From Desulfobacterales bacterium (GTDB lineage: Bacteria > Desulfobacterota > Desulfobacteria > Desulfobacterales > JAHEIW01), in the NCBI GenBank assembly GCA_030066985.1, contig JASJAN010000009.1, forward strand, positions 1-64,000: a stretch of DNA of 64,000 bases, read 5' to 3'. This document shows positions 812-43,584 of this stretch, piece after piece (position 1 is the first letter of the stretch; every line of letters starts with the position of its first letter). A model generated the notes under the pieces. It was not told the origin of the DNA, searched no databases, and saw only the letters and a program-made list of their open reading frames with translations. The translations under genes and the position numbers were made by a program.

Positions 812-1073
812 TGATACCTCTTTATACAGACGAACAAGTGATTATAAGGATCTGGAAATCGCCACCTATAGCATATATCCTTATTCAAAGTCATGGATAA
901 TTCGTAAAAATGGAAATAGGTGCATTTCAAATATTGACCTACAGCCTTGGCGATTTCTTGACTCATACGGGACTAATCAAACACCATGACGATGTACGCA
1001 AGAAAAAGGGTCGAATGGACAATACCGTGGACAAAATTGGTTAATGCAAACTCGTGAAACAAGCCGTGGCTGT

Positions 1074-6980: not shown

Positions 6981-7092
6981 AAAACCATTTCGTATCCTAT
7001 AAAACACCGCTGAAACCTCCAAAGAATGAAATTTATATCCCTTCCAACGGATATCACCGCTTGATTGCAAAGGGATCCCATGTTATTTATAT

Positions 7093-7162
7093 CCCATCTC
7101 AAAAATGCATCTAATCCGCTGGAGGCGGACTCTTGGACCTTATCACCTATTTTTGAGACGGG
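7093..7162. repeat. fold-back element, copy 3 of the MITE-like family (degenerate)
   Basis: CCCATCTCAAAAAT (7093-7106) is the inverted copy, 13 of 14, of ATTTTTGAGACGGG (7149-7162). The stretch 7100-7129 matches the reverse complement of 29797-29826 (the right arm of the copy at 29600) at 27 of 30 positions. It lies between the divergent mltB-like and radA genes. Confidence 0.65.
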
Positions 7163-7209
7163 TTCAATAGATTCATCAAATATATCACAATTAGTGGTAT
7201 TTTTCTATT

Positions 7210-8577: not shown

Positions 8578-8590
8578 TATGCGATTTTTT

Positions 8591-8667
8591 CTACGAAGAG
8601 CACGAAGGAACCCGAAGATAAGCGTAATATTTTTCTCACTTCGTGTTCTTTGTGAACGTCGTGGTAG
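8591..8667. repeat. fold-back of CACGAAG-type words
   Basis: The left arm reads CTACGAAGAGCACGAAGG and onward to 8617; the right arm (8637-8667) reads CACTTCGTGTTCTTTGTG and onward. Each arm is a degenerate tandem of a 9-10 base word and the right arm is its inverse complement. It lies in the radA-rlmE gap. Confidence 0.6.
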
Positions 8668-8783
8668 AATTTATGAACGTTTAAAAGGCGAACAACTCAA
8701 TTTTTAAAAAGGGCTGATTGAAAAAATATGTTTTCCCGATAATTAACCCGCAAATCGAAACAAGGAAGTGAGGAACAAAACAC

Positions 8784-9428
8784 ATGCAGAATTGGAGTGA
8801 TGACTACTCGCAGCGGGCCAAAGAAGAAGATTATCCTGCCAGATCAGTATACAAATTAAAGGAAATCCAAAAAAAATATAGACTTATCAAAAAAGGCGAC
8901 CGGATTCTCGATTTGGGATGCGCGCCGGGCTCATGGTCACTGTATGCGGCCAAATTGATTGGCAAACAGGGCAAGGTGCTGGGACTCGATCTCCAAGAGG
9001 TTACCCATAAAATGCCTTTGCATGTCGAAACCCTTGTGATGGATGTTTTGGAAATTGATTGGGAATGGCTGGATGAGCAGGATTTGATAAACGAATTTGA
9101 TGTCATCCTAAGCGATATGGCACCGTCGACCACCGGCACTAAAATGCTGGATGCCACCCGGTCGTTTCAGTTATGTCAGGCTGCTCTGAACATCACCGAA
9201 TTCGCCTTGAAACCGGGCGGATCATTTGTCTGCAAGATTTTCCAAGGTGAAGATTTTAATGAATTTTTGGAATCCGTTAAGGAACGATTTCGCAATCATC
9301 GGATTTTCAAACCTCATAGCAGTCGCAAGGAAAGCAGGGAAATTTACGTCTTGGGTATCGGTTACAGGGGATACTATACTAAGATTGAAAATGAAGATGA
9401 AGATAAAATCAGGCGCGCCTCGCATTGA
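8784..9428 (+). CDS. rlmE: 23S rRNA (uridine-2'-O-)-methyltransferase RlmE (FtsJ/RrmJ)
   Basis: A 214-residue SAM-dependent enzyme that 2'-O-methylates the A-loop uridine (U2552 in E. coli numbering) in the large ribosomal subunit. The SAM site ILDLGCAPGSWS is at residues 41-52. The K-D-K-E catalytic tetrad of the family is intact at Lys24, Asp111 (LSDMAPS), Lys151 (CKIFQG) and Glu186 (SREIYVL). Length fits RlmE (about 209), with a short acidic and basic tail (NEDEDKIRRASH). A GGAAGTGAGG region precedes ATG 8784. The YebC-like gene follows 75 bp later on the same strand, so the two translation-related genes may be co-expressed. Confidence 0.96.
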   Translation: MQNWSDDYSQRAKEEDYPARSVYKLKEIQKKYRLIKKGDRILDLGCAPGSWSLYAAKLIGKQGKVLGLDLQEVTHKMPLHVETLVMDVLEIDWEWLDEQDLINEFDVILSDMAPSTTGTKMLDATRSFQLCQAALNITEFALKPGGSFVCKIFQGEDFNEFLESVKERFRNHRIFKPHSSRKESREIYVLGIGYRGYYTKIENEDEDKIRRASH

Positions 9429-12106: not shown

Positions 12107-12694
12107 TTAGATATACGGAGCTAGTTTCATCATCAGCTCATGCTTCTGCAACCCGCCGGGCATGCTTTCTTTCATCTGACCATTATCAAATATAAACAAA
12201 AAAGGCACACTCATAATGCTGTAATTATTTGCCAGCCCGGGGTTGGCGTCAATGTTGACTTTACCCACCCGAACCTTTCCTTTGGACTGGGCTGCAAATT
12301 CATCGATGATGGGTGTGACGGCCCCGCATGTCGGGCACCAGGGCGCCCAGGCAAACAGCAGCACCGGCAGTGGCGATTTTATCACTTTGTCCTCAAAATT
12401 GCTGTCGGTAATCATCACCGGCTGGGGCTCATTCAGCGCTTCAGTTTTTAGCGCAGCGCCGCACTTGCCGCATTTGGCGCCGGCATCCAATTTATCGGCC
12501 GGGACTTTATTTTTGGTTCCGCATTCCGTGCAGCGCATCTTAGTGGATTCGCCCGCCGCGGTCTTTTTTTGTTCAGTCGGCAGGGCCGTATGGCATTTAC
12601 CGCATTTGGCCGCTGCTCCGGTTTTGTCGGCCGGGATGCGGTTGGCCGCCCCGCAATTCGCACAATGAACAATATGAAAATTGGCCTGATCCAT
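12107..12694 (-). CDS. thioredoxin with two N-terminal zinc ribbons
   Basis: A 195-residue cytoplasmic protein. Residues 11-34 and 55-78 are two tandem zinc ribbons (Cys11, Cys14, Cys31, Cys34; Cys55, Cys58, Cys75, Cys78), both with the pattern CxxC...K-CGKC. Residues about 90-195 are a thioredoxin fold with active site Cys120-Pro-Thr-Cys123 and the cis-proline loop SVPFLFIF. E. coli Trx2 (TrxC) has one zinc-binding region and a CGPC site, so both the doubled ribbon and the CPTC active site are departures that should change redox potential or partner choice. GAACGAG lies close to the ATG. The neighbouring reductase partner is not in this window. Confidence 0.88.
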   Translation of the reverse strand: MDQANFHIVHCANCGAANRIPADKTGAAAKCGKCHTALPTEQKKTAAGESTKMRCTECGTKNKVPADKLDAGAKCGKCGAALKTEALNEPQPVMITDSNFEDKVIKSPLPVLLFAWAPWCPTCGAVTPIIDEFAAQSKGKVRVGKVNIDANPGLANNYSIMSVPFLFIFDNGQMKESMPGGLQKHELMMKLAPYI

Positions 12695-13223
12695 CTCGTT
12701 CCTCTCAACTTGCTTTTGGATTTTTTTAAAATAAGGACGCCGTCATTTATGTAAAGGACGACATCGCAATAAATTTCTAATTTAACTCATTGGAATTATT
12801 GCGCAAGTCCTAATTAATCATTCAGAAGGGGCAAAACCGATATTTCCCGTTTGAAATTGAAATAAATTCATGATGTTACAGTCAGCATTCCCTCCGGCAA
12901 CACCCGCGACTCATTTTCTTGCCCGATCAATATAAATTCTGGCCAAATAAGCGCCATCTGCTGCTTGCACTCTTTATGGCGCTGGTCTCATATTTGGCTC
13001 TTGACTCGACCCTGCATTTTCATTATTTACCTACTGATCCCAGCATTTCCTCCATTTTAATTTCAGCTTCCAACCACATAAAAGAGTGCGTGCAACCAAG
13101 CAACACATGTTTAGGCAAAACGATTTTTCAATGCTCATACACAATTAACAATTTCCGATTATTGGAATCTTGCGCTATTTTGAATTCTACACATATCAAC
13201 AAAACCGCAGAAAGGAGGACAAG
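12695..13223. other. gap before the ABC importer operon
   Basis: About 530 bp between the divergent thioredoxin gene and the substrate-binding protein gene. It should hold both promoters. I found no clear Fur-type palindrome, riboswitch or RNA gene. A 102-codon open frame inside it has no Shine-Dalgarno sequence or family resemblance and runs into the next gene, so I do not call it. Confidence 0.4.
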
Positions 13224-14669
13224 ATGAGAAAAAAGATTCTGGCTGCAGCCATCTTAACCGTTTTTGTTGTGGGGGTGCTGCTTGTACCGACGCTTGCAAG
13301 GCAGGCACAGGCGGCGGACAAAATCGGATGGGTCGGCCCGGTTTACAAGGAATTATCCGCCAGTCTGAACAAGGGTTTCAAAGAATACTATAAAAAGACC
13401 TATGGCAAAGACGTGGAGATCACATTTGTTCGACCGGGCGGATGGCCGGTCTGCGTGGACAAGGTCAGAGCGTGGGCCGGCAAGCCGGATGCCGATATTT
13501 TCCTGGGTGCCGGTGCCCCGGCGCATGAGGTGTTAAAGCAAGAGGGCCTGATCGTCCCGTACCGGCCCAAGGATTGGGATAAGGTTCCCGCCGACTGGCA
13601 CGGTATGAAGGTCAAGGATGCAGAAGATTATTGGACCTGCTTTGCCCCCTGGATTGTCACCAACCTATACAACGAAAAGGTTTTGAAGAAGCTGAGGCTG
13701 CCGCCGCCCAAAACCTGGCACGATCTACTCAACCCCATCTACCGGGGCAATGTCGTACACACCCTGCCATACGCATCCGGTACGATGCATGAAACCATTG
13801 AGATTCTGCTGCAGGCGTTTGGAGAAGAGGAGGCCTGGCGTTATCTCAGATTGCTGGCCGCGCAGCTGTCGCGTTTTTCCACCGGCAGCACCGATACTAC
13901 CCAATTGACGGCTCGTGGTGAAGTTCCCATGGGGATTGCGCAGCCGCAAATGAACGCCATGGCGGCACGCAAAGACGGTTTTCCGGTAAAAGATTTACTC
14001 CCTGAAAAAACCATCCTGGTTCCTGAGGCCGTGGCGTTGCTCAAGGGAGCGCCCAACGAGGAGGTCGGCAAAATTTTTCTGGACTGGCTGTTTAGTATGG
14101 AAGGCCAGAAATACGTGCTGGAGGGCCGTTACTTTGCAGCCCGCACCGATATTAAATTCTCTGAGTGGGAAAAAGAAGGTGTCGAAATGGCCACCCATGC
14201 CAAAAAGGCCCTGGGGGTGGACTCGTTTTGGGACTTGCAGGTCGATTTCATCGAATATGACCTGGACCTGGCAACCAAGCGCTGGGACGAAGTCAATAAG
14301 AAATACGAGATGGAAATCTATCGCAAATGGAGCGAGCTCAAAAACAGTCTGTTTTTGATCGAGGAAGTTGAGGGTGAAATTGAGGCGGCCAAGGCCAAGC
14401 AAAAAGATGTGGCCCAAGCTGAGGCCAAAATTAAGGAAGCCCGCAAGCTCTTCGAGGTAGACGGTGCATACGCGGATGCCAGACTGGCCGCAACCGAAGC
14501 CCGTGCGGTCTCCGCAGCTGTAGTTGCCGCTGCGGCCCCTGCTGCCACACCAGCTCCCGCTGCTGCGGCTGAGCCGGAGATACCATTTAAGATTCTCTTA
14601 TTGCTGGCATTGGCCCTCGGGGTTTCGGTGGTCGCCATTATTATTGCACTGCAAAGACGCCATAAGTAG
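13224..14669 (+). CDS. ABC importer substrate-binding protein (Fe3+/phosphonate type) with C-terminal membrane anchor
   Basis: A 481-residue periplasmic binding protein. GGAGGACAAG precedes ATG 13224, followed by a signal peptide MRKKILAAAILTVFVVGVLL ending near AQAAD. The body resembles the FbpA/FutA/PhnS-type binding proteins (SBP_bac_8 clan): DADIFLGAGAPAHEVLKQEG, TWHDLLNPIYRGNV, PMGIAQPQMNAMAA. Unlike those, about 110 residues are added: a Lys/Glu-rich coiled coil, a low-complexity Ala/Pro linker and a terminal membrane helix (ILLLLALALGVSVVAIIIAL) ending RRHK. The protein is thus probably tethered to the inner membrane by its C-terminus. Permease and ATPase follow. Ligand unknown: Fe3+, a phosphonate or a glycerophosphodiester; the neighbouring glpQ and ugp genes favour an organophosphate (inference). 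Confidence 0.85.
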   Translation: MRKKILAAAILTVFVVGVLLVPTLARQAQAADKIGWVGPVYKELSASLNKGFKEYYKKTYGKDVEITFVRPGGWPVCVDKVRAWAGKPDADIFLGAGAPAHEVLKQEGLIVPYRPKDWDKVPADWHGMKVKDAEDYWTCFAPWIVTNLYNEKVLKKLRLPPPKTWHDLLNPIYRGNVVHTLPYASGTMHETIEILLQAFGEEEAWRYLRLLAAQLSRFSTGSTDTTQLTARGEVPMGIAQPQMNAMAARKDGFPVKDLLPEKTILVPEAVALLKGAPNEEVGKIFLDWLFSMEGQKYVLEGRYFAARTDIKFSEWEKEGVEMATHAKKALGVDSFWDLQVDFIEYDLDLATKRWDEVNKKYEMEIYRKWSELKNSLFLIEEVEGEIEAAKAKQKDVAQAEAKIKEARKLFEVDGAYADARLAATEARAVSAAVVAAAAPAATPAPAAAAEPEIPFKILLLLALALGVSVVAIIIALQRRHK

Positions 14670-14714
14670 CGATCGTTTGTGACGCAACCCATAATGATCC
14701 AAGCTTGATGCACA

Positions 14715-14772
14715 GGCCCGCCCTGTCATTCGTTGCTCTGCCGTTCTTGGCGGAGATCGAACAGGGTGGGCC
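14715..14772. other. intercistronic hairpin after the binding-protein gene
   Basis: GGCCCGCCCTGT (14715-14726) and ACAGGGTGGGCC (14761-14772) are inverted with 11 of 12 matches. There is no T tract, so it is not a plain terminator. Such hairpins after binding-protein genes often protect the upstream mRNA and lower expression of the permease. Confidence 0.5.
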
Positions 14773-14816
14773 ATCGCTTGTCCTTTTGCCGTTGAGCAGG
14801 TGGGAAAGGAGGTGAG

Positions 14817-16493
14817 ATGTCGCGCGGCAACATCTCTCTGGCAGCAGTCCTGTGGATGATCATCGCCTTTTTCGTGCTTTACCCGCTGTCGTATCTGGTG
14901 GTGGAAAGTTTTAAAATATCTGCCACTGGCGGTTGGGGCATCAACAACTATATCGAATTCTTCAAAGACACGTACTACCTTAAAACCTTTGGCAATACCC
15001 TGTTGCTGAGCACGCTGCTGCTGGTGACCACCACTGTGTTCGGCGTGCCCCTGGCTTATATCCTGGCGCGCTACCGCCATCGGGGCAAAACCATTTTCAC
15101 CGCCCTGATCCTTTTGCCGATTGTCTTACCGGCTTTTGCCGGGGTGTTTGCCTTTATTATCTTTTTTGGTAAATATGGGACCCTGAATCTGCTCCTTATG
15201 GATTTCGGGCTGATCGATGAGCCCATCAATTTCATTTACGGGCGCCACGGATTGGTGTTCATTCAGGCTTTGCACATGCTGCCCTTTATCGTTTTGGGCC
15301 TTTCTGCGGGTTTTACCAATATCGATCCCTCTTTTGAGGAAGCTGCGGAAGTTGAAGGTGCCAGCGGTGTGCGGCGTTTTTTTACCATCACCTTGCCGCT
15401 GTGCACGCCCAGCTATATGGCCGGCGCGGTGCTCGTGTTTCTGTGGCCCTTTACCGACTGGTTGACACCGCTGATTCTGGGGCAGGTGGACTATTTGCCC
15501 TCGGTTTCTTATATCAACATCGCCTATCACTTTACCGATGTGCACCGCAAATATATGGGCATTGTGGCGGTGGTTGTTTCAGCTGTTATTTGCATCAGCC
15601 TCTTTTTGCTGGCGCGCTGGTGGGTTGAGCGCCGAAAGTATACCGGCCTGTCCAAAGGGACCACCTCTGAAGGCCGAATCATAGAGCCGAGTCCATTGAT
15701 GAAAACGGGCGCCTATGTATACATGGTTTTGATTGCCATCCTCGTTTTACTGATTCCCATCGTTTTGGGGCTGGCTGCCTTTTCCCGGAGATGGGTGTTT
15801 GAGGCCTTTCCCACCTATTGGACGCTTGAAAATTTCAGACTCATCCTGCTGGAAAGTCCGGGTTTGATTAAAAACTCCTTTGTTTTTAGCGGCATCGCTC
15901 TGATTTTTGGAATTGCCTTCGGGCTTCCTGCCGCCTATTTGATTGTGCGGACCCGTGTGCCGGGCAGAGATGCGCTCGATTTTGTGATTACACTGATGCT
16001 GGCGTTTCCGGGGATCGCCATCGGTGTCAGCTATCTGTTAGCCTTCTGGAAAGGAATCCCGCTGGCGACCCATTGGATCATCATGCCCCTGGCCCTGTTT
16101 GCACGACGGCTTCCGTATTTTTTGCGAATGGCGCATTCGTCTTACCTGCAACTGGATACTTCACTGGAGGAAGCCTCAGAAGTTTCGGGTGCCAGCAAGC
16201 TCAGAACGTTTTTTAATATATCATTACCGTTGTTGCTCAAAGGCGTCCTCGTCGGCGTGGTGATGTTTTTTATCATGGCCTTTCAGGAGATCTCGACGGC
16301 CATATTCCTGTATCGCGGCGGGTGGGAAACCCTGCCCATTGGGATCTTTTTAAACTGGCACCGTGGCATGGAGTTTGGTATTGCCGCTGCTATGGCTTTT
16401 TTGATGATTGTGATCACCTTTATCCTGTTGTTGATTATATCAAAAATTGGCGGTGGCGTTCTCAAAGCGGCCTGGGGGTCGGGGGAGCAATAA
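14817..16493 (+). CDS. ABC transporter permease, FbpB/SfuB type, two fused permease domains
   Basis: A 558-residue inner-membrane protein with about twelve helices, formed by two BPD_transp_1 domains in one chain as in Fe3+ (FbpB) and aminoethylphosphonate-type importers. Each half has an ATPase-contacting EAA loop: EEAAEVEGASGVRRFF at about residue 180 and EEASEVSGASKLRTFF at about residue 455. GGAAAGGAGG lies just upstream of ATG 14817. It is the second gene of an operon with the binding protein before it and the ATPase after it. Substrate is set by the binding protein and is not certain. Confidence 0.92.
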   Translation: MSRGNISLAAVLWMIIAFFVLYPLSYLVVESFKISATGGWGINNYIEFFKDTYYLKTFGNTLLLSTLLLVTTTVFGVPLAYILARYRHRGKTIFTALILLPIVLPAFAGVFAFIIFFGKYGTLNLLLMDFGLIDEPINFIYGRHGLVFIQALHMLPFIVLGLSAGFTNIDPSFEEAAEVEGASGVRRFFTITLPLCTPSYMAGAVLVFLWPFTDWLTPLILGQVDYLPSVSYINIAYHFTDVHRKYMGIVAVVVSAVICISLFLLARWWVERRKYTGLSKGTTSEGRIIEPSPLMKTGAYVYMVLIAILVLLIPIVLGLAAFSRRWVFEAFPTYWTLENFRLILLESPGLIKNSFVFSGIALIFGIAFGLPAAYLIVRTRVPGRDALDFVITLMLAFPGIAIGVSYLLAFWKGIPLATHWIIMPLALFARRLPYFLRMAHSSYLQLDTSLEEASEVSGASKLRTFFNISLPLLLKGVLVGVVMFFIMAFQEISTAIFLYRGGWETLPIGIFLNWHRGMEFGIAAAMAFLMIVITFILLLIISKIGGGVLKAAWGSGEQ

Positions 16494-33850: not shown

Positions 33851-34738
33851 CTATATCAATCCTGCTGTCTGCATAATCTCCGGCACCTTCTCTTCCTTGC
33901 CGATGGCCATGATGTGCACGCCGTCGCACATATTTTCATCATGAATGCGTTTAATCATGCGGCCGGTAATTTCAATCCCTTTGGCCAGCGCCTGGCCTTT
34001 GGGTGCGGATGCCATTTCATCAATCAGATCCTGCGGCACAAAAACCCCGGCGATATTTTTATTCATAAACCGGGCCATAGGCGCCGAGGTCAGTAAAATA
34101 ACACCGGCCAGGATCTTGGTATTGAACTGCCGCGCGTAATCCATGAATTCTTTGAATTTATCCAGGTCATAAACCGCCTGGGTTTGAATAAACTCAGCGC
34201 CGGCCTCCAGCTTTTTTTCAAATTTGATTAGTTGCGGTTCAAGCGGGTTTGCTTCAGGTGTTACGATGGCACCGGCACAAAATGAAACCCCGCCATCCAG
34301 ATCGTTGCCGCCAAGGTCTTTGCCTGCCTCCAAGAGGCGCACCGTTTTCAACAACTGGCTGGAGTCCATGTCAAAAACGCTCTTGGCTTCTTTATGATCC
34401 CCTAAAATGATCGAATCTCCGGTAAGGCAAAGAACATTTTGAATCCCGCGCGAGGAAGCAAACAAAAGATCGGCCTGTAATGCCAGCCGGTTGCGATCCC
34501 GGCAGGTCATCTGCAATATGACCTCCCCGCCCATTTCTTGAACCAGCATCGCGCCACCCAGAGACGGATAACGCATCACCGAGCTCTGATGATCGGTGAC
34601 ATTCATGGCGTCGACCTTGTCTTTTAACAATTCGATATGGTGCTTGAATTTTTCAAGGTTGGTTCCCTTTGGCGGGGCAACCTCACTGGTCACCACAAAT
34701 TTACCGGAATCCAAAGCTTCTTTAAATTTTGTTGGCAT
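33851..34738 (-). CDS. metF: methylenetetrahydrofolate reductase MetF
   Basis: A 295-residue TIM-barrel flavoprotein that reduces 5,10-methylene-tetrahydrofolate to 5-methyl-tetrahydrofolate, the last folate step of the methyl branch of the Wood-Ljungdahl pathway. Conserved points are the Glu in VVTSEVAPPKG, QMTCRDRNRLALQADLL (flavin/folate binding), LCLTGDSIILGDH (the LxGD Asp) and EFIQTQAVYDLDKF. It lacks the regulatory domain of eukaryotic enzymes. It is the last gene of the seven-gene operon and follows metV by 90 bp, a pairing seen in acetogens, where MetF needs MetV for activity. A MetF paralogue lies near the other end of the operon. Confidence 0.93.
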   Translation of the reverse strand: MPTKFKEALDSGKFVVTSEVAPPKGTNLEKFKHHIELLKDKVDAMNVTDHQSSVMRYPSLGGAMLVQEMGGEVILQMTCRDRNRLALQADLLFASSRGIQNVLCLTGDSIILGDHKEAKSVFDMDSSQLLKTVRLLEAGKDLGGNDLDGGVSFCAGAIVTPEANPLEPQLIKFEKKLEAGAEFIQTQAVYDLDKFKEFMDYARQFNTKILAGVILLTSAPMARFMNKNIAGVFVPQDLIDEMASAPKGQALAKGIEITGRMIKRIHDENMCDGVHIMAIGKEEKVPEIMQTAGLI

Positions 34739-34828
34739 CTCAAACTCCCCTTCTATTTAAGATCCATTTAAATACAGCTAAATTTTTTCTGTCTCTGTTA
34801 ACCAATAACGAAAAACCATTAACCAGAT

Positions 34829-35482
34829 TTATCCTTCTGGAAGCTCAAATTTCCCAGGCTTGGGCTCACCCAGATGATTACGCGGTTTTTGGTATTTTCG
34901 CATGGATTCGAGCCGTCCCAGTTCATTGAGACGATTGTAAATCAAAGTCCAGACACAGTCTTTGTTAACGTCGATTTCGCATTTGCCGTGATTGGTACCG
35001 CCGCAGGGACCATTGACTAAACCCTTGTGACAGTTGGTCACCGGGCAAATACCACCGGTTTCGCCGATGATGCAGGTACCGCACTGGGTGCAGATCTCAT
35101 CGAACAATCCCACCGCCGATTCTTTGCCGATGAACAGGGTATCCAGGGCTGGAATGACCATCTTGTGCAACTGGCGGGCAATGCTTTGAACGCCAAAGGC
35201 ACAAGTCATGATCAGCAGAGCATCGGCCTGATTGATCTGCTCGCCAAAATCACTCAGAAACTCACGGGTTAGATTGTCACAAGCAACCGGTACCACTGTT
35301 TGACCGGTAACCATTTTACCCTTTGTGGACAACTCTTCTGTCATGGCGCGCACTTCCGGGTCTCCGCCGGTGCGGGTAAGGGTCACACAGGTTCCGCACC
35401 CAATAATGAAAATCCGGTTAAGTCCTTTCAAGAGGCGTTCAATTTCTTTGTCCGGTTTTTTTTGCGTTATGGATCGAATCAT
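34829..35482 (-). CDS. metV: MetV-type zinc/iron-sulfur subunit of methylenetetrahydrofolate reductase
   Basis: A 217-residue protein of the MTHFR C-terminal (MetV) family, the partner subunit of MetF in acetogens such as Moorella and Acetobacterium. The N-terminal half has IIGCGTCVTLTRTGGDPEV; the C-terminal half is a Cys cluster region: CTQCGTC, GICPVTNCHKGLVNGPCGG and GKCE, expected to bind Zn and/or an Fe-S cluster. It overlaps the preceding nuoF-gltD gene by 4 bp (ATGA), a sign of coupled translation. The context says electrons pass from the NuoEFG-like proteins to MetV and on to the MetF flavin (inference). Confidence 0.9.
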   Translation of the reverse strand: MIRSITQKKPDKEIERLLKGLNRIFIIGCGTCVTLTRTGGDPEVRAMTEELSTKGKMVTGQTVVPVACDNLTREFLSDFGEQINQADALLIMTCAFGVQSIARQLHKMVIPALDTLFIGKESAVGLFDEICTQCGTCIIGETGGICPVTNCHKGLVNGPCGGTNHGKCEIDVNKDCVWTLIYNRLNELGRLESMRKYQKPRNHLGEPKPGKFELPEG

Positions 35483-38400
35483 ATCGCATTCTCCTCTTTT
35501 TCAAGATCGCATCGAAGGCAGCGGATGGCTTCGCGATAAGCCTCCTCTTCGCTAAATCCTTTTTCAACTTCTCTAAAATCCCTTATCCGTTCCTGGGCAT
35601 TTTCGACTTCGACCTCCACCCGGGGCTTGTCCTCCATATCTTCTTTTTCAAGCGCCAGTTTGGTGCCCGTATGCCGCGGTGATTTTTCATCCGGGATATA
35701 CACGCGACTTTTGTCACCGCCCAGATATTTATCGATGGCAATAGCCGCCCGCCGGCCGGATGCAATTGCACGAATCACAAAGGTCGGACCAGTGGTAAAA
35801 TCCCCACCAGCAAAAACACCTGGCACATTGGTGGCCAGTGTGTTGGTGTCCACCACCAGGGCGCCCCAGAGTTCACGCTCCAGCTGGCTGTCGGCAGAAA
35901 GAAACGACATGTCGGCGGCCTGGCCGATGGAGATAATGACATTGTCGGCATCCACAAAGCGCGTGTCGTCGAGATCACAGGTGGGATTAAAACAGCCCTC
36001 ATCGTCAAAGACGCAGATGCAGCGCGTGAACTCAACGCCCGTCACCTTGCCCTTTTCGTGGGTGATTTTACTTGGCGACAGGTCGGGGTTGATGACAATA
36101 CCCTCATCGATGGCCTCATCCACATCTTGCTCCCAGGCCGGCATCTCATCACGGGGCTCCAGGCAGAATATTTGTGCCTCCTGTGCGCCGGTCCTTAAAG
36201 CGGTCCGGGCGACGTCGACGGCCACATTACCGCCGCCGATGATCACCGTTTTGCCGCTTAACGGCACCTTTTCGCCCATGCGGACCTGGGTTAAAAAATC
36301 AAGGCCATAGTAAATGCCTTCGAGGCCTTCTTCTTCTCCGGGGATACCGATTTGCTTGCTGGCCTGGGCTCCGGCGGCAATAAATACCGCGCTGTAGCCC
36401 TCATTTAGCAGGTCATTAAAGGTGTGTTTGGCATCAATGGGTGCGTTATAGCGGATTTCAACACCGCAGTTTTGAATATATTGGATTTCTTCTTCGATCA
36501 CTTGGCGCGGTAGCCTGAACTCCGGTACCGCAATGCCCAGCATGCCGCCCGCCACCGATTGGGCTTCAAAAACGGTGGTCTGGTATCCCATTTTTGCCAG
36601 AAAATAGGCGCAGGTTAAGCCGGCCGGCCCCGCTCCGACGACGGCCACTTTTTCCTCGCGGGTTACCGGAAAAGGCTCTCTTTGGGGGCCGATGTTTTTG
36701 AAATACCAGTCAGAGGCCACGCGTTTAAGGGCCCGAATCGCTACGGGCTGATCCAGTTCTCCGCGCCGGCATTTGAACTCGCAGGGATGGATACAGATAC
36801 GCCCGCAAACCGCCGGAAACGGGTTGCGCTCGCGAATGATCTCAACCGATTTATCATATTCGCCATCAGCAATCGCCGCCACATAATTGGGCACATCAAT
36901 GCCTGCCGGGCAGGCATGCTGACAGGCGGAAATCACCATCGAATCGCATACTGCTCCGGCACAGCGATGTTCTTTGATGTGGTCTTCAAATTCTTTGAGA
37001 AAATATTTGAGGGTCGAAAGGGCCGGTTTGGAGCAGGCCTGTCCCAGACCGCACAAGGATGCCTCAGTCAAGGTCTCTCCCAGTTGCCGGATCGTATCAA
37101 TGTCTTCCATACGGCCCTTGCCCTGGGTGATGCGTGTCAGAATTTCCAGCAGCTGGGTGGTGCCCAGACGGCAGGGTGCACATTTACCACAGGATTCTGA
37201 CTGGGTGAAGCTGAGGAAAAAGCGGGCGATTTCAACCATGCAGTTATTTTCATCCATGACCACCATACCGCCCGACCCCATGATGGCCCCGATGCGCTGG
37301 ACCGTATCGTAATCAATTTCAAGGCTTAAAAATTGAGGTGGCACACAGCCGCCGGCCGGCCCGCCCATTTGAACGGCCTTAAACGCGCGACCTTTTGGTA
37401 TGCCGCCGCCAATGTCATAAATGACGTCTTTGACGGTGGATCCGATTGGCACCTCCACCAGTCCGGTGTTGTTGACCTTGCCCGCCAGAGAGAAGATTTT
37501 GGTGCCTTTGCTCTCTTCGGTGCCCACCTGGCCGTACCAATCCGCTCCGTTTTTAATGATTAACGGGACGTTGGCCCAGGTTTCAACATTGTTGATATTC
37601 GTCGGTTTGGCATCAATACCTGCCTGCGCCGGAAAAGGCGGTCTGGCCCGGGGCATGCCGCGTTTGCCTTCGATCGAGGCCATCAGGGCCGTTTCTTCAC
37701 CGCAGACGAACGCCCCGGCACCCAAGCGCAGAGAGAGATCAAAATTAAATCCGGTGCCCAAAATGTTTTCGCCCAAAAGCCCCAATTCATTGGCCTGGTC
37801 GATGGCGATGTTAAGATGATCGATGGCGATCGGATACTCTTCGCGCACATAGATGTAGCCGTATTCACTGCCCATGGCATAGGCACCGATGAGCATCCCT
37901 TCCACCACCGCATGCGGGTCGCCTTCCAAAATGGCGCGATCCATGAATGCACCGGGATCGCCCTCATCAGCGTTGCAGACGGTATACTTGGGCCGGCCTT
38001 CAGACTGTCGAGCGAATTTCCATTTGAGTCCGGTGGGAAACCCCGCTCCGCCTCGGCCTCTGAGTTTAGCAGTCAGAACCTCTTCGACGACCTGTTCGGG
38101 CGACATTTTCGACAACGCCTTGACCAGGGCCTGATAGCCGCCATCGGCAATATAATCTTCGACTCGGGTTGGATCGATGCGGCCGCAGTTGGCCAAAACC
38201 CGTCGTTCCTGTTTGGCGTAAAAAGGGATCTGGTTGCGGTAATAGACCGGTTGATGCGTCTTGGGTTCGTGATAGGCCAGGCGGTCGATGAGCTGGCTGC
38301 GTTTCAAAGTCTGAGCGACGATTTCGGCGGCATCATTCGGCTCCACTTCTTGGTATTGAACCCCCATGGGCTCAATGGCAATCACCGGTGCCTTGGCACA

Positions 38401-38610
38401 AAAACCGTGACAGCCGGTGGCACGGATTTCCACCCGATCCGAAATCTTTTGGCTTTTGACTTCATCTTTTAAGGACCCCAGCACACCGGCGGCGCCGTAA
38501 GCCCGACAGCCGGTCATGCACACATGCACTTCGATGGTTCCTTCTTTTTTGCGGGACTGGATTTTATTGCGGAGCCACTCCAGCTTTCCGATGGATGAAA
38601 GCTTCTCCAT
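35479..38610 (-). CDS. NuoF-GltD fusion: NADH/FMN subunit joined to an NAD(P)H-FAD oxidoreductase
   Basis: A 1043-residue protein of two enzymes in one chain. Residues 1-90: thioredoxin-like [2Fe-2S] domain (Cys31, Cys35, Cys67, Cys71). Residues about 130-560: NuoF/HndC, with GRGGAGFPTGLKW (FMN), CNADEGDPGAFMDR (NADH) and the SCGKCAPCRLGT cluster motif. Residues about 570-1000: GltD/NfnL-like, with an Fe-S part (CQHACPAGIDVPNYV, CGRICIHPCEFKCRRG), FAD motif VAVVGAGPAGLTCAYFL and NAD(P)H motif VIIGGGNVAVDVART. The tail has CLRCDLEKE. With two flavins and two dinucleotide sites it could carry out flavin-based electron bifurcation (inference). It overlaps metV and follows nuoE by 68 bp. Confidence 0.92.
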   Translation of the reverse strand: MEKLSSIGKLEWLRNKIQSRKKEGTIEVHVCMTGCRAYGAAGVLGSLKDEVKSQKISDRVEIRATGCHGFCAKAPVIAIEPMGVQYQEVEPNDAAEIVAQTLKRSQLIDRLAYHEPKTHQPVYYRNQIPFYAKQERRVLANCGRIDPTRVEDYIADGGYQALVKALSKMSPEQVVEEVLTAKLRGRGGAGFPTGLKWKFARQSEGRPKYTVCNADEGDPGAFMDRAILEGDPHAVVEGMLIGAYAMGSEYGYIYVREEYPIAIDHLNIAIDQANELGLLGENILGTGFNFDLSLRLGAGAFVCGEETALMASIEGKRGMPRARPPFPAQAGIDAKPTNINNVETWANVPLIIKNGADWYGQVGTEESKGTKIFSLAGKVNNTGLVEVPIGSTVKDVIYDIGGGIPKGRAFKAVQMGGPAGGCVPPQFLSLEIDYDTVQRIGAIMGSGGMVVMDENNCMVEIARFFLSFTQSESCGKCAPCRLGTTQLLEILTRITQGKGRMEDIDTIRQLGETLTEASLCGLGQACSKPALSTLKYFLKEFEDHIKEHRCAGAVCDSMVISACQHACPAGIDVPNYVAAIADGEYDKSVEIIRERNPFPAVCGRICIHPCEFKCRRGELDQPVAIRALKRVASDWYFKNIGPQREPFPVTREEKVAVVGAGPAGLTCAYFLAKMGYQTTVFEAQSVAGGMLGIAVPEFRLPRQVIEEEIQYIQNCGVEIRYNAPIDAKHTFNDLLNEGYSAVFIAAGAQASKQIGIPGEEEGLEGIYYGLDFLTQVRMGEKVPLSGKTVIIGGGNVAVDVARTALRTGAQEAQIFCLEPRDEMPAWEQDVDEAIDEGIVINPDLSPSKITHEKGKVTGVEFTRCICVFDDEGCFNPTCDLDDTRFVDADNVIISIGQAADMSFLSADSQLERELWGALVVDTNTLATNVPGVFAGGDFTTGPTFVIRAIASGRRAAIAIDKYLGGDKSRVYIPDEKSPRHTGTKLALEKEDMEDKPRVEVEVENAQERIRDFREVEKGFSEEEAYREAIRCLRCDLEKEENAI

Positions 38611-38678
38611 TTGGCAGAATCTCCCTTTCGCTCAGATATTCCGTCTACCGCAAATGCTTGCGTGGCAAACGGCTGGTT

Positions 38679-39152
38679 TTATTTTTTTTGATACTCTCCC
38701 AAAAGGCTGCTGACCTTGATTGGGGAAAGCTTGCCGAAATAATCCCGGTTGATCATCATGGTCGGCGCCAGAAAACAGGCGCCCAAGCAGGCCACCGTTT
38801 CGAGGGTGAATTGATAATCGGAACTGGTTTCACCCTCTTTCAGATCCAGCTCTTTTTGCATCAGGCGCAAAACGCTGCGGCTGCCTTTGACGTGACAGGC
38901 GGTGCCGCGGCATACTCTGAGGACATATTTTCCTTTGGGCTCCAAAGCAAATCCGGCATAAAACGTAATAACACCCTGGACTTCAGACGGGTACATATTC
39001 ATGGCTTCGGCAATCGGCTCTATCGATTCAGGCGGTATATATCCGGTATGTTCCTGCACTTCCTGAAGCAGAGGAATAAGCCCCCATTTATCGCCTTTAT
39101 GCTTTTCGATAATTTCGTTAATCCGGTCCCAATTGATCTCAGGTGGTTTCAT
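38679..39152 (-). CDS. NuoE/HndA-like [2Fe-2S] subunit
   Basis: A 157-residue thioredoxin-like ferredoxin subunit of NADH-oxidising complexes (complex I 24-kDa subunit, HndA, HydC). Helical N-terminal part (WGLIPLLQEVQEHTGYIPPE) then the cluster domain with CRGTACHVKG and CLGACFLAPTMMIN supplying the four Cys. It precedes the NuoF-GltD gene by 68 bp and forms the usual NuoE-NuoF pair that takes hydride from NADH. Family known; role in the MetF complex inferred. Confidence 0.94.
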   Translation of the reverse strand: MKPPEINWDRINEIIEKHKGDKWGLIPLLQEVQEHTGYIPPESIEPIAEAMNMYPSEVQGVITFYAGFALEPKGKYVLRVCRGTACHVKGSRSVLRLMQKELDLKEGETSSDYQFTLETVACLGACFLAPTMMINRDYFGKLSPIKVSSLLGEYQKK

Positions 39153-39228
39153 ACGGGTGCCCCATCTGTCTGTTGTAAGTTAAATTGATTTTTAAGCAAT
39201 TTATTTGTTGAGTTGCTCGTAACAGTCA

Positions 39229-39303
39229 GGTTCAAGGTTCAAGGTTGAACTTCTGCATGACGTGCGCCGTATGCCTTGCGCCTTGGGCCTTACGCCTTAT
39301 GCC
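39229..39303. repeat. GGTTCA words followed by GCCTTGCGCCTTG words
   Basis: 39229-39250 holds tandem GGTTCAAGGTTCAAGGTTG; 39262-39303 holds tandem GCCTTGCGCCTTGGGCC-like words. Both are one-armed here. The second array runs over the last codons of the FdhA/NuoG-like gene, so the repeat may have altered its C-terminus. Confidence 0.5.
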
Positions 39304-41960
39304 TTTGTGATTTTAGCGGCGCATGTTTTCCATCCGCCCGCATTCGGTTCGGCCAGATCGCTTAAGTCAATCAGATTCATGGCATCGTTGGCATTGACCG
39401 CCAGCGGAACAAAAAGCTGGCCGGTTTCGATGCGATTGCTGCAATCAATTTTGCGTTGGATTTCACCCCATTGGGTCTCAATTTTTACGGTATCCCCATC
39501 TTTTAGTTTCAGTTGATCTGCATCCGAACTGTTAAGGGCCACATTTCCGACATGGTCAAAATCTTGAATGCGCTCAGAGGTGCTCGTTCGGGTGCCGCTG
39601 CCCAGGTGATAGCGCAAAGAGCCCAATATGGCCGTAAATGGATAAGTCCCATCAGCGGGTTCATCCGCTGTTGAGACCACTGGTGAAAAAGATACCTTCT
39701 CGGAAGTGTCGGCGTTCCCAAAAACTGCCATTGGGCTGGCGGGTTTCACCCAGGCGGTGTCGCCAGCATTTAATTCGGCATAAGCAGGTACCAGACGGCG
39801 GATCTCATCACGGATTTTTTCGAGGGTGCCATACGCCTCAGGGGCTCCCAAACGGGACGCCAGCATATCCAGGATTTCCCAGTCGGCCTTGGCCTTGCCG
39901 GGCGGAGGCACCACGGCTGAAAAATTTTGGATGCGGCCTTCCAAATTGGTAAAGGAACCGTTCTTTTCGCTGGTAGCGGCAGCGGGCAAAACTACATCTG
40001 CCAGTTTGACGATTTCACTGTCCAGAATATCCTGCACAACGAGGAGCTCTAACTTTTTCAGCGCTGCTTTCACACGTTGCGGCTGTGGTAGAGACCGCAG
40101 CGGATTTTCACCCATGATATACAGGGCTTTGAGCTGGCCGTTTTCAGCCGCCTCGATAATCCGCGCCATATTCAGGCCCGGATCCGGGGAAATCTTGACA
40201 TCCCAATTCTTTTCCCATGCTTTTCGGTTGCCATTTTCAACGATCGGCAATCTTCCGGGCAGCAGGTCCGGCACTGTGCCCATATCCATGGCGCCGTTCT
40301 GATTGCTCTCTCTGGCCAACAGATACAGTCCGGCACCCTGTGTGCCCAGACTCCCGGTCATCAATGACAGATTGAGAATCGCGCCCAGGGCGTGCGTGCC
40401 ATAACGTTGCTGCAAAATGCCATGACCGATGACAAATGCGATGCGTTTTTCTTTAATCAATTCGGCCATGGCATTTAATTGTTGCATCTTAAGTCCAGTC
40501 AAGCGGCAAACTTTATTCATATCCAGCGAAGACAACGCATAGGTAAAAAGACTGAATCCTTCAGCGTAGCGGTCAATAAACTCAGAATCGTAGTCATTGG
40601 TTTCATGCAGCAAAGCGGCCAGGGCATTGATCAATTCCAGATCGGTGCCGGGTGTGATGGGAAGCCATAAGGATGAAAAGCTAACCAGTTCGGTTTTGCG
40701 CGGGTCGACCACAATCAGCGGAACGCCGTTTTTAGCCGTGCGCTTCAGATGGTAGCTGACCACTGGAAGAGAGTGGTTGGGGTCGGCCCCAAGGACCACG
40801 ATGGCATCTGCTTTTTCCAAATCGCTGAAAGGTGTCGGGCGACATCCACCGCCGGTTTTTTGATCTACGATGTTTGCTAAAAATTGCCCGGAAACATACC
40901 CGCCGTTGTCGACATTGTTGGTGCCGACCAGCACCCGAGCTATTTTTTGAAACAGATAATTTTCTTCATTACTGCACTTTGAAGAGCCCATGAAAGCAAT
41001 GCTTTGCGGTCCGCTTTCATCCTTTATTTGGTGCAACCGTTTGGCCACCTGATCCAGGGCTTCATCCCATGAAACCGGGGCCAATTGGGTGGTATCATCT
41101 TCTCCTTTTTTGGGCATCATCGGAGCGATGAGGCGCCGTCGCGAATTTAAAAAATCATGGGCAAAATGGCCGCGCACACATAGGGTGGCCTTGTTGACAC
41201 TATCGGGCAAATGCGCCGGATTAACGTCGATGACTTTGTTGGCGGTTTGCCCCATGGCCAGGCTGCAACCCACGCCGCAAAAACTGCAAATTGAAAACGA
41301 CTCCTGCGTCGGGCTACCGACGTATTGGTTGTTTTTGGCCGACAGTGCACCGGTGGGGCACATGGAAACGCAGGTGCCGCAAAAGGTGCAATTTGAGCGC
41401 TCAAGCCCCTGTTCATGAACCGTTGCCGGTCGAGATGTAAAACCTCTCAAATTATAATCAATGGCACCGACCACCACCAGTTCATGATCTGCCCGGATGC
41501 ATTTTCCGCACAAAATACATTTGCTCAAATCACGGGTAATAAACGGATTGGCCTGCTCCAGAGGCTTGTAGTTGGGCATGGCATACAGATCCGTTTCGCC
41601 AATACCCATCTGCGAGGCGACCCATCGTAGTTGACAGCGGTTGCCCTTGCTGCAAACTATGCAGGATTCCGGATGTTCGGCAATCATCAAGCGGACGATA
41701 TTGCGGCGATGGCTCAGGATGCGCGGTGTATCGGACAAAAGTTTCATATCCGCTGCAACGGGGGTAACACACGAAGCCATCAGGCGACCACTTTCTTGAT
41801 CCTCCACCAGACAGAGCCGACAGGCGCCAAAGGGTTTCAGATCCGGATGAAAACAGAGGTGGGGTATCTTAATGCCTTTTTGGGTCGCAGCTTGTAAAAT
41901 AGAAGTCCCGGGGGGACAGCTAATCTTTTTATTGTCGATGGTTAAGACGATGTTGTCCAA
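39297..41960 (-). CDS. NuoG/FdhA-like molybdopterin-family subunit without formate dehydrogenase catalytic residues
   Basis: An 887-residue protein built like NAD-dependent formate dehydrogenase alpha. [2Fe-2S] domain (Cys36, Cys47, Cys50, Cys64); His-ligated [4Fe-4S] (His96, Cys100, Cys103, Cys109); two ferredoxin motifs (Cys148, Cys151, Cys154, then Asp158 where Cys is usual; Cys191, Cys194, Cys197, Cys201); then the bis-MGD fold with [4Fe-4S] Cys225, Cys228, Cys232, Cys261. Where formate dehydrogenases read NNVDxCARx(U/C)HSP, this protein reads NNVDNGGYVSGQF (from residue 348): Sec/Cys is Ser357 and the next His is Gly358. Formate oxidation is thus unlikely; an electron-wire or altered-substrate role is more plausible. 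Between metF2 and nuoE in the operon. Confidence 0.88.
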   Translation of the reverse strand: MDNIVLTIDNKKISCPPGTSILQAATQKGIKIPHLCFHPDLKPFGACRLCLVEDQESGRLMASCVTPVAADMKLLSDTPRILSHRRNIVRLMIAEHPESCIVCSKGNRCQLRWVASQMGIGETDLYAMPNYKPLEQANPFITRDLSKCILCGKCIRADHELVVVGAIDYNLRGFTSRPATVHEQGLERSNCTFCGTCVSMCPTGALSAKNNQYVGSPTQESFSICSFCGVGCSLAMGQTANKVIDVNPAHLPDSVNKATLCVRGHFAHDFLNSRRRLIAPMMPKKGEDDTTQLAPVSWDEALDQVAKRLHQIKDESGPQSIAFMGSSKCSNEENYLFQKIARVLVGTNNVDNGGYVSGQFLANIVDQKTGGGCRPTPFSDLEKADAIVVLGADPNHSLPVVSYHLKRTAKNGVPLIVVDPRKTELVSFSSLWLPITPGTDLELINALAALLHETNDYDSEFIDRYAEGFSLFTYALSSLDMNKVCRLTGLKMQQLNAMAELIKEKRIAFVIGHGILQQRYGTHALGAILNLSLMTGSLGTQGAGLYLLARESNQNGAMDMGTVPDLLPGRLPIVENGNRKAWEKNWDVKISPDPGLNMARIIEAAENGQLKALYIMGENPLRSLPQPQRVKAALKKLELLVVQDILDSEIVKLADVVLPAAATSEKNGSFTNLEGRIQNFSAVVPPPGKAKADWEILDMLASRLGAPEAYGTLEKIRDEIRRLVPAYAELNAGDTAWVKPASPMAVFGNADTSEKVSFSPVVSTADEPADGTYPFTAILGSLRYHLGSGTRTSTSERIQDFDHVGNVALNSSDADQLKLKDGDTVKIETQWGEIQRKIDCSNRIETGQLFVPLAVNANDAMNLIDLSDLAEPNAGGWKTCAAKITKA

Positions 41961-41980
41961 GCGGCTGACTCCTTTTGTTA

Positions 41981-42086
41981 GTGGGTTGGTCCGCCTGCGG
42001 CGGATTAACCCGTTTGCCGGTTAACCGGCAATCAAAAATGCAATTGCCGATAACGGGCACAACGGGCAACCGGGAAACGGATAAAC
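41981..42086. repeat. palindromic CCGGTTAACCGG/CAACGGGCA repeat
   Basis: Contains GTCCGCCTGCGGCGGATTAA (a GGCGGA palindrome), the perfect palindrome TGCCGGTTAACCGGCA (42016-42031), and inverted words such as TAACGGGCACAACGGGCAAC. Related to the blocks at 10311, 33739 and 59600. It lies inside the operon, between metF2 and the NuoG/FdhA-like gene, and reaches the metF2 stop codon. Confidence 0.6.
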
Positions 42087-42962
42087 CTATTTTAATTTTG
42101 CTGCATCCAGATAATTTTTTAGCTTTTCTTCACCGCCGATGGTAATGATATGAACGCCCTGGCACAAATCTTTGAGGCCGGTGACAATATCAGCAAAAAT
42201 TTCAGTGCTGGCTTTGAGCTTGTCCGGTGCCTGGGCCAATTTCTGGATCATCCATTCCGGCACCAGGCCGGATTTTAAATGCCGGTTGAGAAAGCGTCCC
42301 ATGCCGGCGGTGCGCAGGATCATGACCTCGGCAATGACCGGCACGTTAAAGGTATCGACCCGGCGCAAAAACTTGGCAAATTGATCGACATCAAAAACAG
42401 GCGTGGTCAGGAAATATCCGGTGCCCATTTTGGTCAGCTCCTCCATTTCCTTCATTTCCAGATCGGGCACATTTTTGCCCCAGGACGACTCCACGCCTGA
42501 TCCCACCAGAAAATCAGCTTTGGATTTGAGGGTATCGCCTTCAACGGTTTGTCCCTTTTTGATGTGTTCCAGTACCGATTGCAATTTACCGGCGTCGACA
42601 TGGAAAAACATCATTTCCTGCAAACTGTCGCCGGTAATGCGATAATCCTCGGTAAATACCAGGAGGTTATCGATCCCGGCTTCGTGGGCGTCAACCAGAT
42701 CTTTTTGCAATTGAATGCGGTTTTTATCTCGGGTGGTGGTTTGATAAATCGGCTCAAATTGATTTTGATCCAACAGCTGGCAGGTATTAATGGTGTCCCC
42801 GACCACCCCTTCAAATTCGACTTCAGACAGTGAAACACCATCTACCCGCCCGCGCACTTTGGATAGGCTGCGGACCAGATCTTCCGGTTCCTGGTCGATG
42901 GGCGCCTGAATTTCCGAGGTCACGACAAATTGCTTTTTTTTCAAAGCTTCCTTTAATTTCAT
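42087..42962 (-). CDS. second MetF-like methylenetetrahydrofolate reductase family protein
   Basis: A 291-residue TIM-barrel protein of the MetF family, clearly different from the first copy. GGAGGCACC before ATG 42962 fixes the start. Kept features are the Glu in VVTSEIQAPID, QTTTRDKNRIQLQKDL and FFHVDAGKL; changed is LCLTGD, here LVFTED. The C-terminal GVHIITIGGEEKLKNYL matches the end of MetF1 (GVHIMAIGKEEKVPEIM). It could be a second active reductase, an enzyme on another C1-pterin, or a structural paralogue. It follows the HTH-receiver gene by 49 bp and precedes the NuoG/FdhA-like gene by 126 bp of repeats. Confidence 0.87.
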   Translation of the reverse strand: MKLKEALKKKQFVVTSEIQAPIDQEPEDLVRSLSKVRGRVDGVSLSEVEFEGVVGDTINTCQLLDQNQFEPIYQTTTRDKNRIQLQKDLVDAHEAGIDNLLVFTEDYRITGDSLQEMMFFHVDAGKLQSVLEHIKKGQTVEGDTLKSKADFLVGSGVESSWGKNVPDLEMKEMEELTKMGTGYFLTTPVFDVDQFAKFLRRVDTFNVPVIAEVMILRTAGMGRFLNRHLKSGLVPEWMIQKLAQAPDKLKASTEIFADIVTGLKDLCQGVHIITIGGEEKLKNYLDAAKLK

Positions 42963-43011
42963 GGTGCCTCCTTGGCTGGCTTTGCGGATCGTCCCCTTTG
43001 TTATTGTGCGG

Positions 43012-43584
43012 TTAATGCAGCTCGAGCAAGCGGGCCACCTCTTCTTTGAGTTGGGGCAGCGGGAACGGTTTGGAAAAACAGGCATCCGCGCCGTACTGTT
43101 TCATCTTTTTAAACTTATCCTCATCCAGATAAGCGGACAGTACGATGATTTTAGTGTTGGTCGTATCGGGATTTTCCTTAATTTTTTTACAGACCTCATA
43201 GCCTTTGATATCGGGCATCATGATATCCAGGATCAGCAGATGGGGGGCAAAGTGATTGATCTGCAGCCCGGCTTCAAATCCATCGGATGCTGATATCACT
43301 TCATAATCAAATTCGTCCTCTTCGAGTGCCTGCACGATGGTTTCGACGATGATCGGATCATCATCGACCACCAGAATTTTTCTTTTTAAGCCATCGGCTT
43401 CCTGATCCGGAATCGGAATTCCCTGCTTTTTCATGAAAAATTCCAGATCTGACCGGTTGATGCGCCGATGTCCGCCGACGGTCTTATAGGCCTTAATATG
43501 CCCGGATTCAATCCAGTTGATAATGGTTTTTGCAGACACATTACAGAGCTGGCTTGCTTTAAACACTGTTAATACGTCTTCCAT
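43012..43584 (-). CDS. excisionase/MerR-type HTH fused to a response-regulator receiver domain
   Basis: A 190-residue regulator with its domains in unusual order. Residues 1-55 are a MerR/BldC-like winged helix (TVFKASQLCNVSAKTIINWIE, then TVGGHRRINRSDLEFF); residues 68-188 are a full receiver domain with acidic pocket Asp74-76, phosphoacceptor Asp120 (LLILDIMMPD) and Lys172. Most response regulators have the receiver first. GGAGCGATCAT precedes the ATG. It is the first gene of the metF/nuo operon, 49 bp before metF2, under a good promoter, so it probably controls its own operon. The PAS histidine kinase upstream is the natural candidate partner. Confidence 0.9.
   Translation of the reverse strand: MEDVLTVFKASQLCNVSAKTIINWIESGHIKAYKTVGGHRRINRSDLEFFMKKQGIPIPDQEADGLKRKILVVDDDPIIVETIVQALEEDEFDYEVISASDGFEAGLQINHFAPHLLILDIMMPDIKGYEVCKKIKENPDTTNTKIIVLSAYLDEDKFKKMKQYGADACFSKPFPLPQLKEEVARLLELH

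Follow-up and report, generated by a model that had tools for sequence, protein, structure and literature searches.

Organization and conservation of the gene set

The window, i.e., the whole stretch of DNA that was analyzed, comprises 64,000 nucleotides of a Desulfobacterales genome (contig JASJAN010000009.1). Its minus strand encodes, in this order, a receiver-domain protein, MetF2, a subunit resembling the alpha subunit of formate dehydrogenase (FDH), here called the FdhA-like subunit, then NuoE, NuoF:GltD, MetV, and MetF:

43012..43584, minus strand: helix-turn-helix and receiver-domain protein (PF12728, PF00072), a recurrent neighbor and possible regulator of the gene set
42087..43085, minus strand: MetF2, a diverged MetF-like protein (PF02219) upstream of the FdhA-like subunit
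39297..41960, minus strand: FdhA-like subunit, 887 aa, an FDH-alpha-like protein that has lost its catalytic site
38679..39152, minus strand: NuoE/HydC-like thioredoxin-fold [2Fe-2S] subunit, 157 aa (PF01257)
35479..38610, minus strand: NuoF:GltD fusion, 1043 aa, with a HydB-like FMN/NAD(H) part (about residues 1 to 560) and, after it, a GltD/NfnB-like FAD/NAD(P)H part
34829..35482, minus strand: MetV, 217 aa (PF12225, over the cut-off)
33851..34738, minus strand: MetF, methylene-tetrahydrofolate (methylene-THF) reductase, 295 aa (PF02219, over the cut-off)

From MetF2 to MetF, the intergenic gaps measure at most about 150 bases, and the genes of NuoF:GltD and MetV overlap by 4 bases. The listed start of MetF2 overlaps the reading frame of the putative regulator, and the gene may actually begin at a more internal position. 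The reading frame of the FdhA-like subunit has a TTG start with AGGAG located 8 nt upstream and no internal stops, while scans for promoters and terminators returned counts near the shuffle background.

Under strict thresholds, 30 of the 194 genomes of the order and 29 of the 395 in the phylum sample, both counts including the window's genome, were found to carry homologues of the FdhA-like subunit, with about 39 to 84% identity; Desulfonema magnum and several Desulfobacterales metagenome-assembled genomes are among the named records. The gene set formed by the FdhA-like subunit, NuoE, NuoF:GltD, MetV, and MetF is fixed and conserved: NuoE lies directly downstream of the FdhA-like subunit in all 50 loci with room for it, 36 of 37 such loci also have MetV and MetF downstream, and the linkage persists where the identity of the FdhA-like subunit is only 39 to 41%. 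The remaining locus (L048) was discarded as an example lacking MetV and MetF, a 100-N scaffold gap interrupting NuoF:GltD there; likewise, three loci (L242, L244, and L245) were discarded as examples of NuoF:GltD lacking the FdhA-like subunit, since they end at contig edges, and in two others (L243 and L246) the subunit is present together with NuoF:GltD.

MetF2 is less constant and was found within 2.5 kb upstream of the FdhA-like subunit in 31 of 46 loci with room. Of the 149 residues that all MetF proteins of the gene set share, it keeps only 57, with changes in motifs such as N-V-T-D-H-Q, the Gly of L-T-G-D, and the Gln of F-x-Q-T-Q. It may be a second, diverged or noncatalytic subunit.

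Loss of the catalytic site in the FdhA-like subunit

A preliminary description of this DNA, made from the sequence alone, had proposed that the FDH active site was lost, with the Sec/Cys ligand replaced by Ser357, the adjacent His replaced by Gly358, and no in-frame TGA at the place of Sec. The alignment with FDHs bore out each of these points, the FDH motif NNVDHCARx(U/C)HSP being matched without gaps by NNVDNGGYVSGQF in the FdhA-like subunit:

40887..40892, minus strand: codons of Ser357 (tcc, 40892 to 40890) and Gly358, replacing the Sec/Cys ligand and the catalytic His

It also disclosed further losses, namely, Ala549 as the counterpart of the formate-binding Arg, Glu551 at the position of a nearby Gln, and Arg263 at the position of a Lys, which we take to correspond to Arg333, Gln335, and Lys44, respectively, in the numbering of Escherichia coli FdhF. 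The ligand is Cys or Sec and the next residue is His in all 37 FDHs, while neither this His nor the formate-binding Arg occurs in any of the 54 members of the family of the FdhA-like subunit. Position 357 is occupied by Ser in 24 members and otherwise by His, Tyr, Asn, Phe, Ala, Thr, or other residues, with Cys in about 6% of the 54; such free drift is what would be expected if no chemistry remained at the site.

No alternative Cys or Sec at the Mo-ligand position emerged from the alignment. A hidden Sec was rejected, as the reading frame contains no in-frame TGA, though the FDH-like genes found elsewhere in the same genome, at C25 and C43, do carry one (the former belongs to a genus-wide group with C-A-R-L-U-H-S-S). 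Cys373, the sole Cys near the active site, was rejected as a displaced ligand, since the FDHs have an invariant Ala at the aligned position and only 13 of 54 relatives have Cys there. Finally, Ser357 is unlikely to act as a ligand of the DMSO-reductase type, because the position is variable across the family.

The retention of FDH features was assessed in the 54 family members at 153 columns that are near-invariant among the 37 FDHs. These columns are kept at 90% in residues 1 to 122 and 94% in residues 123 to 219, which form the N-terminal Fe-S domains, and at 85% in residues 220 to 345; retention is 24% in the Sec loop (residues 346 to 380), 49% in the Arg loop (541 to 575), and 31% in the C-terminal cofactor domain (731 to 887). 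The mean identity within the family follows the same course, with 77% in the dicluster domain, its best-conserved part, against 39% in the Sec loop and 36% in the C-terminal domain, which are among the lowest values; among FDHs, the Sec loop reaches 69%. The disappearance of all catalytic residues throughout the clade, the drift at the ligand position, and the poor retention of C-terminal residues support the view of a protein built like an FDH in which formate catalysis has been lost. Judging from this pattern of conservation, the working molybdopterin cofactor was probably lost as well.

Kinship with formate dehydrogenases and distance from NuoG

In a tree of 102 proteins, obtained with a quick method and containing several long branches, the 55 rows of the family form one clade (SH-aLRT 99), which stands beside the active FDHs and away from NuoG, including four NuoG proteins from organisms of the same family. 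Because the family is a single supported clade, the His and Arg are absent from all 54 members, and the ligand position is drifting, the loss of the catalytic site is ancestral to this clade. The best NCBIfam match of the subunit is the FDH alpha profile TIGR01591, with 510 bits and yet under the cut-off of 666, and the NuoG profile TIGR01973 gives 351 bits, under its cut-off of 470.

The AlphaFold model, built with 57 aligned sequences, confirmed the FDH fold (pLDDT 90.4, pTM 0.92). The top Foldseek matches were alpha subunits of NAD-dependent FDHs, with TM values of 0.92 to 0.94, followed by NuoG, FdhF, and NapA, with StnC-type chains lower, and VIA-align 2 superimposed the model on Methylorubrum FDH1 with a Z score of about 50 and 2.5 A over about 870 residues. 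In particular, the subunit shares with the alpha subunits of NAD-dependent FDHs (FdsA; 6tg9, 9ktl, and 8j83) the domain order, the fold, nearly all Fe-S ligands, and the NuoE and NuoF partners, but it lacks the catalytic Sec/Cys, His, Arg, and Lys, presents an Asp at one cluster Cys, and has a diverged C-terminal cofactor domain. By tree, profile score, and fold, the FdhA-like subunit is a sister of the alpha subunits of NAD-linked FDHs.

The preliminary description had named NuoG of complex I as the closest logic, and this holds for the logic, as both are Fe-S wiring subunits that keep the pterin fold as a relic. As a statement of kinship it does not hold: tree and profile score reject a place of the subunit within NuoG, and it falls in another clade, below the NuoG cut-off, in an operon where no complex I membrane subunits occur, the neighbors being NuoE, NuoF:GltD, MetV, and MetF. 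Moreover, a nearer precedent than NuoG is available in the inactive FdhF-like domain of StnC (PMC10482914), which is discussed below.

Iron-sulfur ligands and the substitution at position 158

The Fe-S sites of the FdhA-like subunit are as follows:

[2Fe-2S] ligands: C36, C47, C50, C64
His-Cys3 site: H96, C100, C103, C109
Dicluster domain: C148, C151, C154, D158, C191, C194, C197, C201
Pterin-proximal [4Fe-4S]: C225, C228, C232, C261
41487..41489, minus strand: codon of Asp158, replacing a [4Fe-4S] Cys ligand according to the alignment

The earlier statement that the Fe-S domains and the pterin fold are retained is correct for the fold and for all ligands except one, Asp158, which occupies the fourth Cys position of the first C-x-x-C-x-x-C-x-x-x-C motif. 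The position is Asp in 50 of the 54 family members and Cys in four, and it is Cys in 37 of 37 FDHs; it is also the sole exception to the conservation, in 54 of 54 members, of the Cys and His residues of the His-Cys3, dicluster, and pterin-proximal sites. The ferredoxin topology assigns residue 158 to the same cluster as C191, C194, and C197. The conservation of Asp158 suggests a cluster that may be tuned or serve a structural role.

The NuoF:GltD fusion and its sister sets

Among solved structures, the NuoF part matches NiFe-HydB best, followed by HydB and StnB, rather than the NuoF of complex I or FDH, and the thioredoxin-domain, NuoF-type, and post-NuoF cysteines are conserved. With respect to BfuABC (PMC9304861), the HydB-like NuoF core and a counterpart of the NuoE-like BfuC are found, but the 4Fe-4S ferredoxin domain, which in BfuB provides clusters B4/B5 and the ferredoxin site and is a hallmark of that family, is not. 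In fact, no Fer4 dicluster domain follows the NuoF part, where Fer4_20 and GltD stand instead. Furthermore, GltD is fused here to NuoF and not, as in Stn/Nfn-Bfu, to the NuoG-like subunit.

The nucleotide motif of the GltD part (residues 816 to 818) is C-L-E in the window and in 26 of 43 members and Y-R-R in the remaining 17, so that a NAD-like and a NADP-like motif alternate among orthologues of one gene set. It is possible to hypothesize that the specificity of GltD is NAD-like in the former and NADP-like in the latter.

In a sister NuoE-NuoF:GltD set, with 48 to 50% identity, the genes that come next encode intact FDHs containing Sec or Cys (L247 and L248). This arrangement is plausible as the ancestral state and is in keeping with an origin of the present module in a working NAD(P)-linked FDH, although in the tree the FDHs of the sister set do not branch as the immediate sister of the family. 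The L247 locus of genome G070, with MetV, MetF, NuoE, NuoF:GltD, and a Sec-containing FdhA, was rejected as an intermediate operon, since a gene on the opposite strand splits MetVF from the FDH set.

Methylene-THF reductase context

The published types of methylene-THF reductase are MetF, MetVF, MetVF-RnfC2, and MetVF-HdrCBA-MvhD, the last two (types III and IV) gaining extra NADH modules (PMC8760232). The MetVF core, with PF12225 adjoining PF02219, is present in the window, while neither RnfC2 nor HdrCBA-MvhD was found among the window genes at 33851 to 43085. Thus, the present set shares MetV and MetF with types II to IV, and types III and IV add a dedicated NADH-oxidizing module; however, the module here, made up of NuoE, NuoF:GltD, and a dead FdhA, matches no type on that list (PMC8760232).

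CODH/ACS is present in the window's genome and, overall, in 28 of the 30 carriers of the FdhA-like subunit, against 126 of 164 noncarriers, a weak enrichment based on the co-occurrence of CdhC. The same genome presents a second MetV-MetF pair beside a 1416-aa HdrA/GltD-like protein (L254, C7, 3470 to 9974) and a MetF-MetV fusion of 532 aa (L255, C15, 8132 to 9727), so the gene set need not be its only methylene-THF reductase.

Proposed function of the FdhA-like subunit

The nearest functional precedent for the FdhA-like subunit is StnC. The StnABC and Nfn-Bfu transhydrogenases (Sporomusa ovata, 8oh5 and 8oh9; Caldicellulosiruptor Nfn-ABC, 9bov) share with the present set a NuoE-like subunit, a HydB-like NuoF, a GltD/NfnB-like domain, and an inactive NuoG/FdhF-like part, and S. 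ovata also has metVF genes nearby. In Stn, the FdhF-like domain is catalytically inactive, and the assembly depends on its remnant clusters C1/C2 (PMC10482914). Different from Stn, GltD is here fused to NuoF, replacing the ferredoxin-reducing domain, the FdhA-like subunit is a full-length protein of its own whose sequence is closer to FDH than to StnC, and MetVF belongs to the conserved gene set.

By analogy, the FdhA-like subunit is most likely a scaffold and Fe-S connector. We consider it fairly probable that, as a noncatalytic subunit, it joins the HydB-type and Nfn-type flavin modules to MetVF in a NAD(P)H-linked, perhaps confurcating, methylene-THF reductase. The protein would derive from a NAD-linked FDH alpha subunit; its N-terminal NuoG-like part would dock on NuoE and NuoF:GltD in the manner of FdsABG and Stn and exchange electrons there, while the dead pterin part would stabilize the assembly and carry MetV and MetF. 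The complex would thus have two pyridine-nucleotide flavin sites, with FMN in the NuoF part and FAD in the GltD part, and the oxidation of methyl-THF, or the reduction of methylene-THF, would be coupled to a second redox couple. The physical complex with MetVF, the electron path, and the direction of the reaction are inferred.

Complete oxidizers would use methyl-THF as the donor, and since its oxidation onto NAD+ is uphill, a confurcating design would make sense there. More tentatively, it is possible that MetVF is wired via the dead FDH subunit to the HydB-type FMN core and the Nfn-type FAD domain as a confurcating/bifurcating enzyme, by which sulfate reducers with the Wood-Ljungdahl pathway oxidize methyl-THF onto NAD(P)+ with the aid of a second redox couple. 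Since the ferredoxin domain of HydB and StnB is missing, bifurcation with ferredoxin may not apply.

This absence also argues against a simple copy of Stn. A stand-alone Stn-like transhydrogenase with two nucleotide sites, in which the FdhA-like protein would be the NuoG-like subunit and MetVF merely cotranscribed, is rather unlikely in our judgment, even though the list of parts is that of StnABC. In S. ovata, stn adjoins metVF and yet Stn was purified without MetVF (PMC7483475), which counts against operon linkage as proof of a complex; here, however, the linkage with MetV and MetF is fixed across a deep divergence, down to 39% identity of the FdhA-like subunit, and the genes of NuoF:GltD and MetV overlap. 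Furthermore, the NAD-like GltD motif would leave many members (26 of 43) with two NAD sites.

The protein might instead still be a molybdo- or tungsto-enzyme acting on another substrate. In arsenite oxidase, a protein ligand to Mo is dispensable, and in the family considered here the fold is fully retained, the pterin-proximal cluster is invariant, and some residues of the pterin domain that are absent from FDHs, e.g., Glu551 and Arg791, are fixed. We regard this as improbable, however, as the low identity of the active-site loop (39%) and of the C-terminal cofactor domain (36%) is the opposite of what a selected active site would show, the ligand position is variable, and only 31% of the C-terminal FDH-invariant residues are retained.

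Among the genes of the set, that of the FdhA-like subunit changes fastest, with about 50 to 60% identity where NuoF has 70 to 80% and MetF about 80%. Its dN/dS between close relatives is 0.09 to 0.11, with values of 0.035 to 0.10 in neighboring genes, and it is under purifying selection, not decaying. A sequencing error, a frameshift, or a decaying pseudogene, to which the faster evolution might point (0.106 against 0.035 to 0.058 for the neighbors in the comparison with L040), has next to no likelihood given the intact reading frame, the strong purifying selection, the gap-free alignment of the motif, and a conserved family with the same losses in dozens of genomes.

Relation to described systems

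A dead FDH-like subunit per se is already known, while the family of the FdhA-like subunit, the substitution at position 158, and the fixed linkage with MetVF appear to be new. In the literature searched, we found neither the architecture with MetVF, nor the family, nor the Cys-to-Asp cluster change, and the excerpts consulted on Desulfobacterium autotrophicum, Desulfococcus multivorans, Seep-SRB, and ANME do not describe the gene set. An excerpt on Seep-SRB1g mentions "fdhF2 adjacent to nfnB" (PMC10553843), which may be this gene set or the sister set.

The occurrence of the gene set in dozens of sulfate-reducer-type bacteria suggests a new wiring for a key one-carbon enzyme and provides a concrete candidate, which would have two pyridine-nucleotide flavin sites and whose list of subunits can be tested. 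The FdhA-like subunit clearly exemplifies a molybdoenzyme subunit that would be kept for Fe-S wiring and as a scaffold after catalysis, in a clade separate from NuoG, and genes of this kind should not be counted as formate dehydrogenases in annotations. Other FdhA-like proteins without the Cys-His site were also noticed: one (L251, genome G001, 12115 to 15036) has a NuoE domain fused at its C terminus and adjoins a sister NuoF:GltD gene, and another locus (L080, positions 324 to 3017 and 6466 to 9192) presents an active-type FdhA together with a second FdhA-like protein lacking the site.
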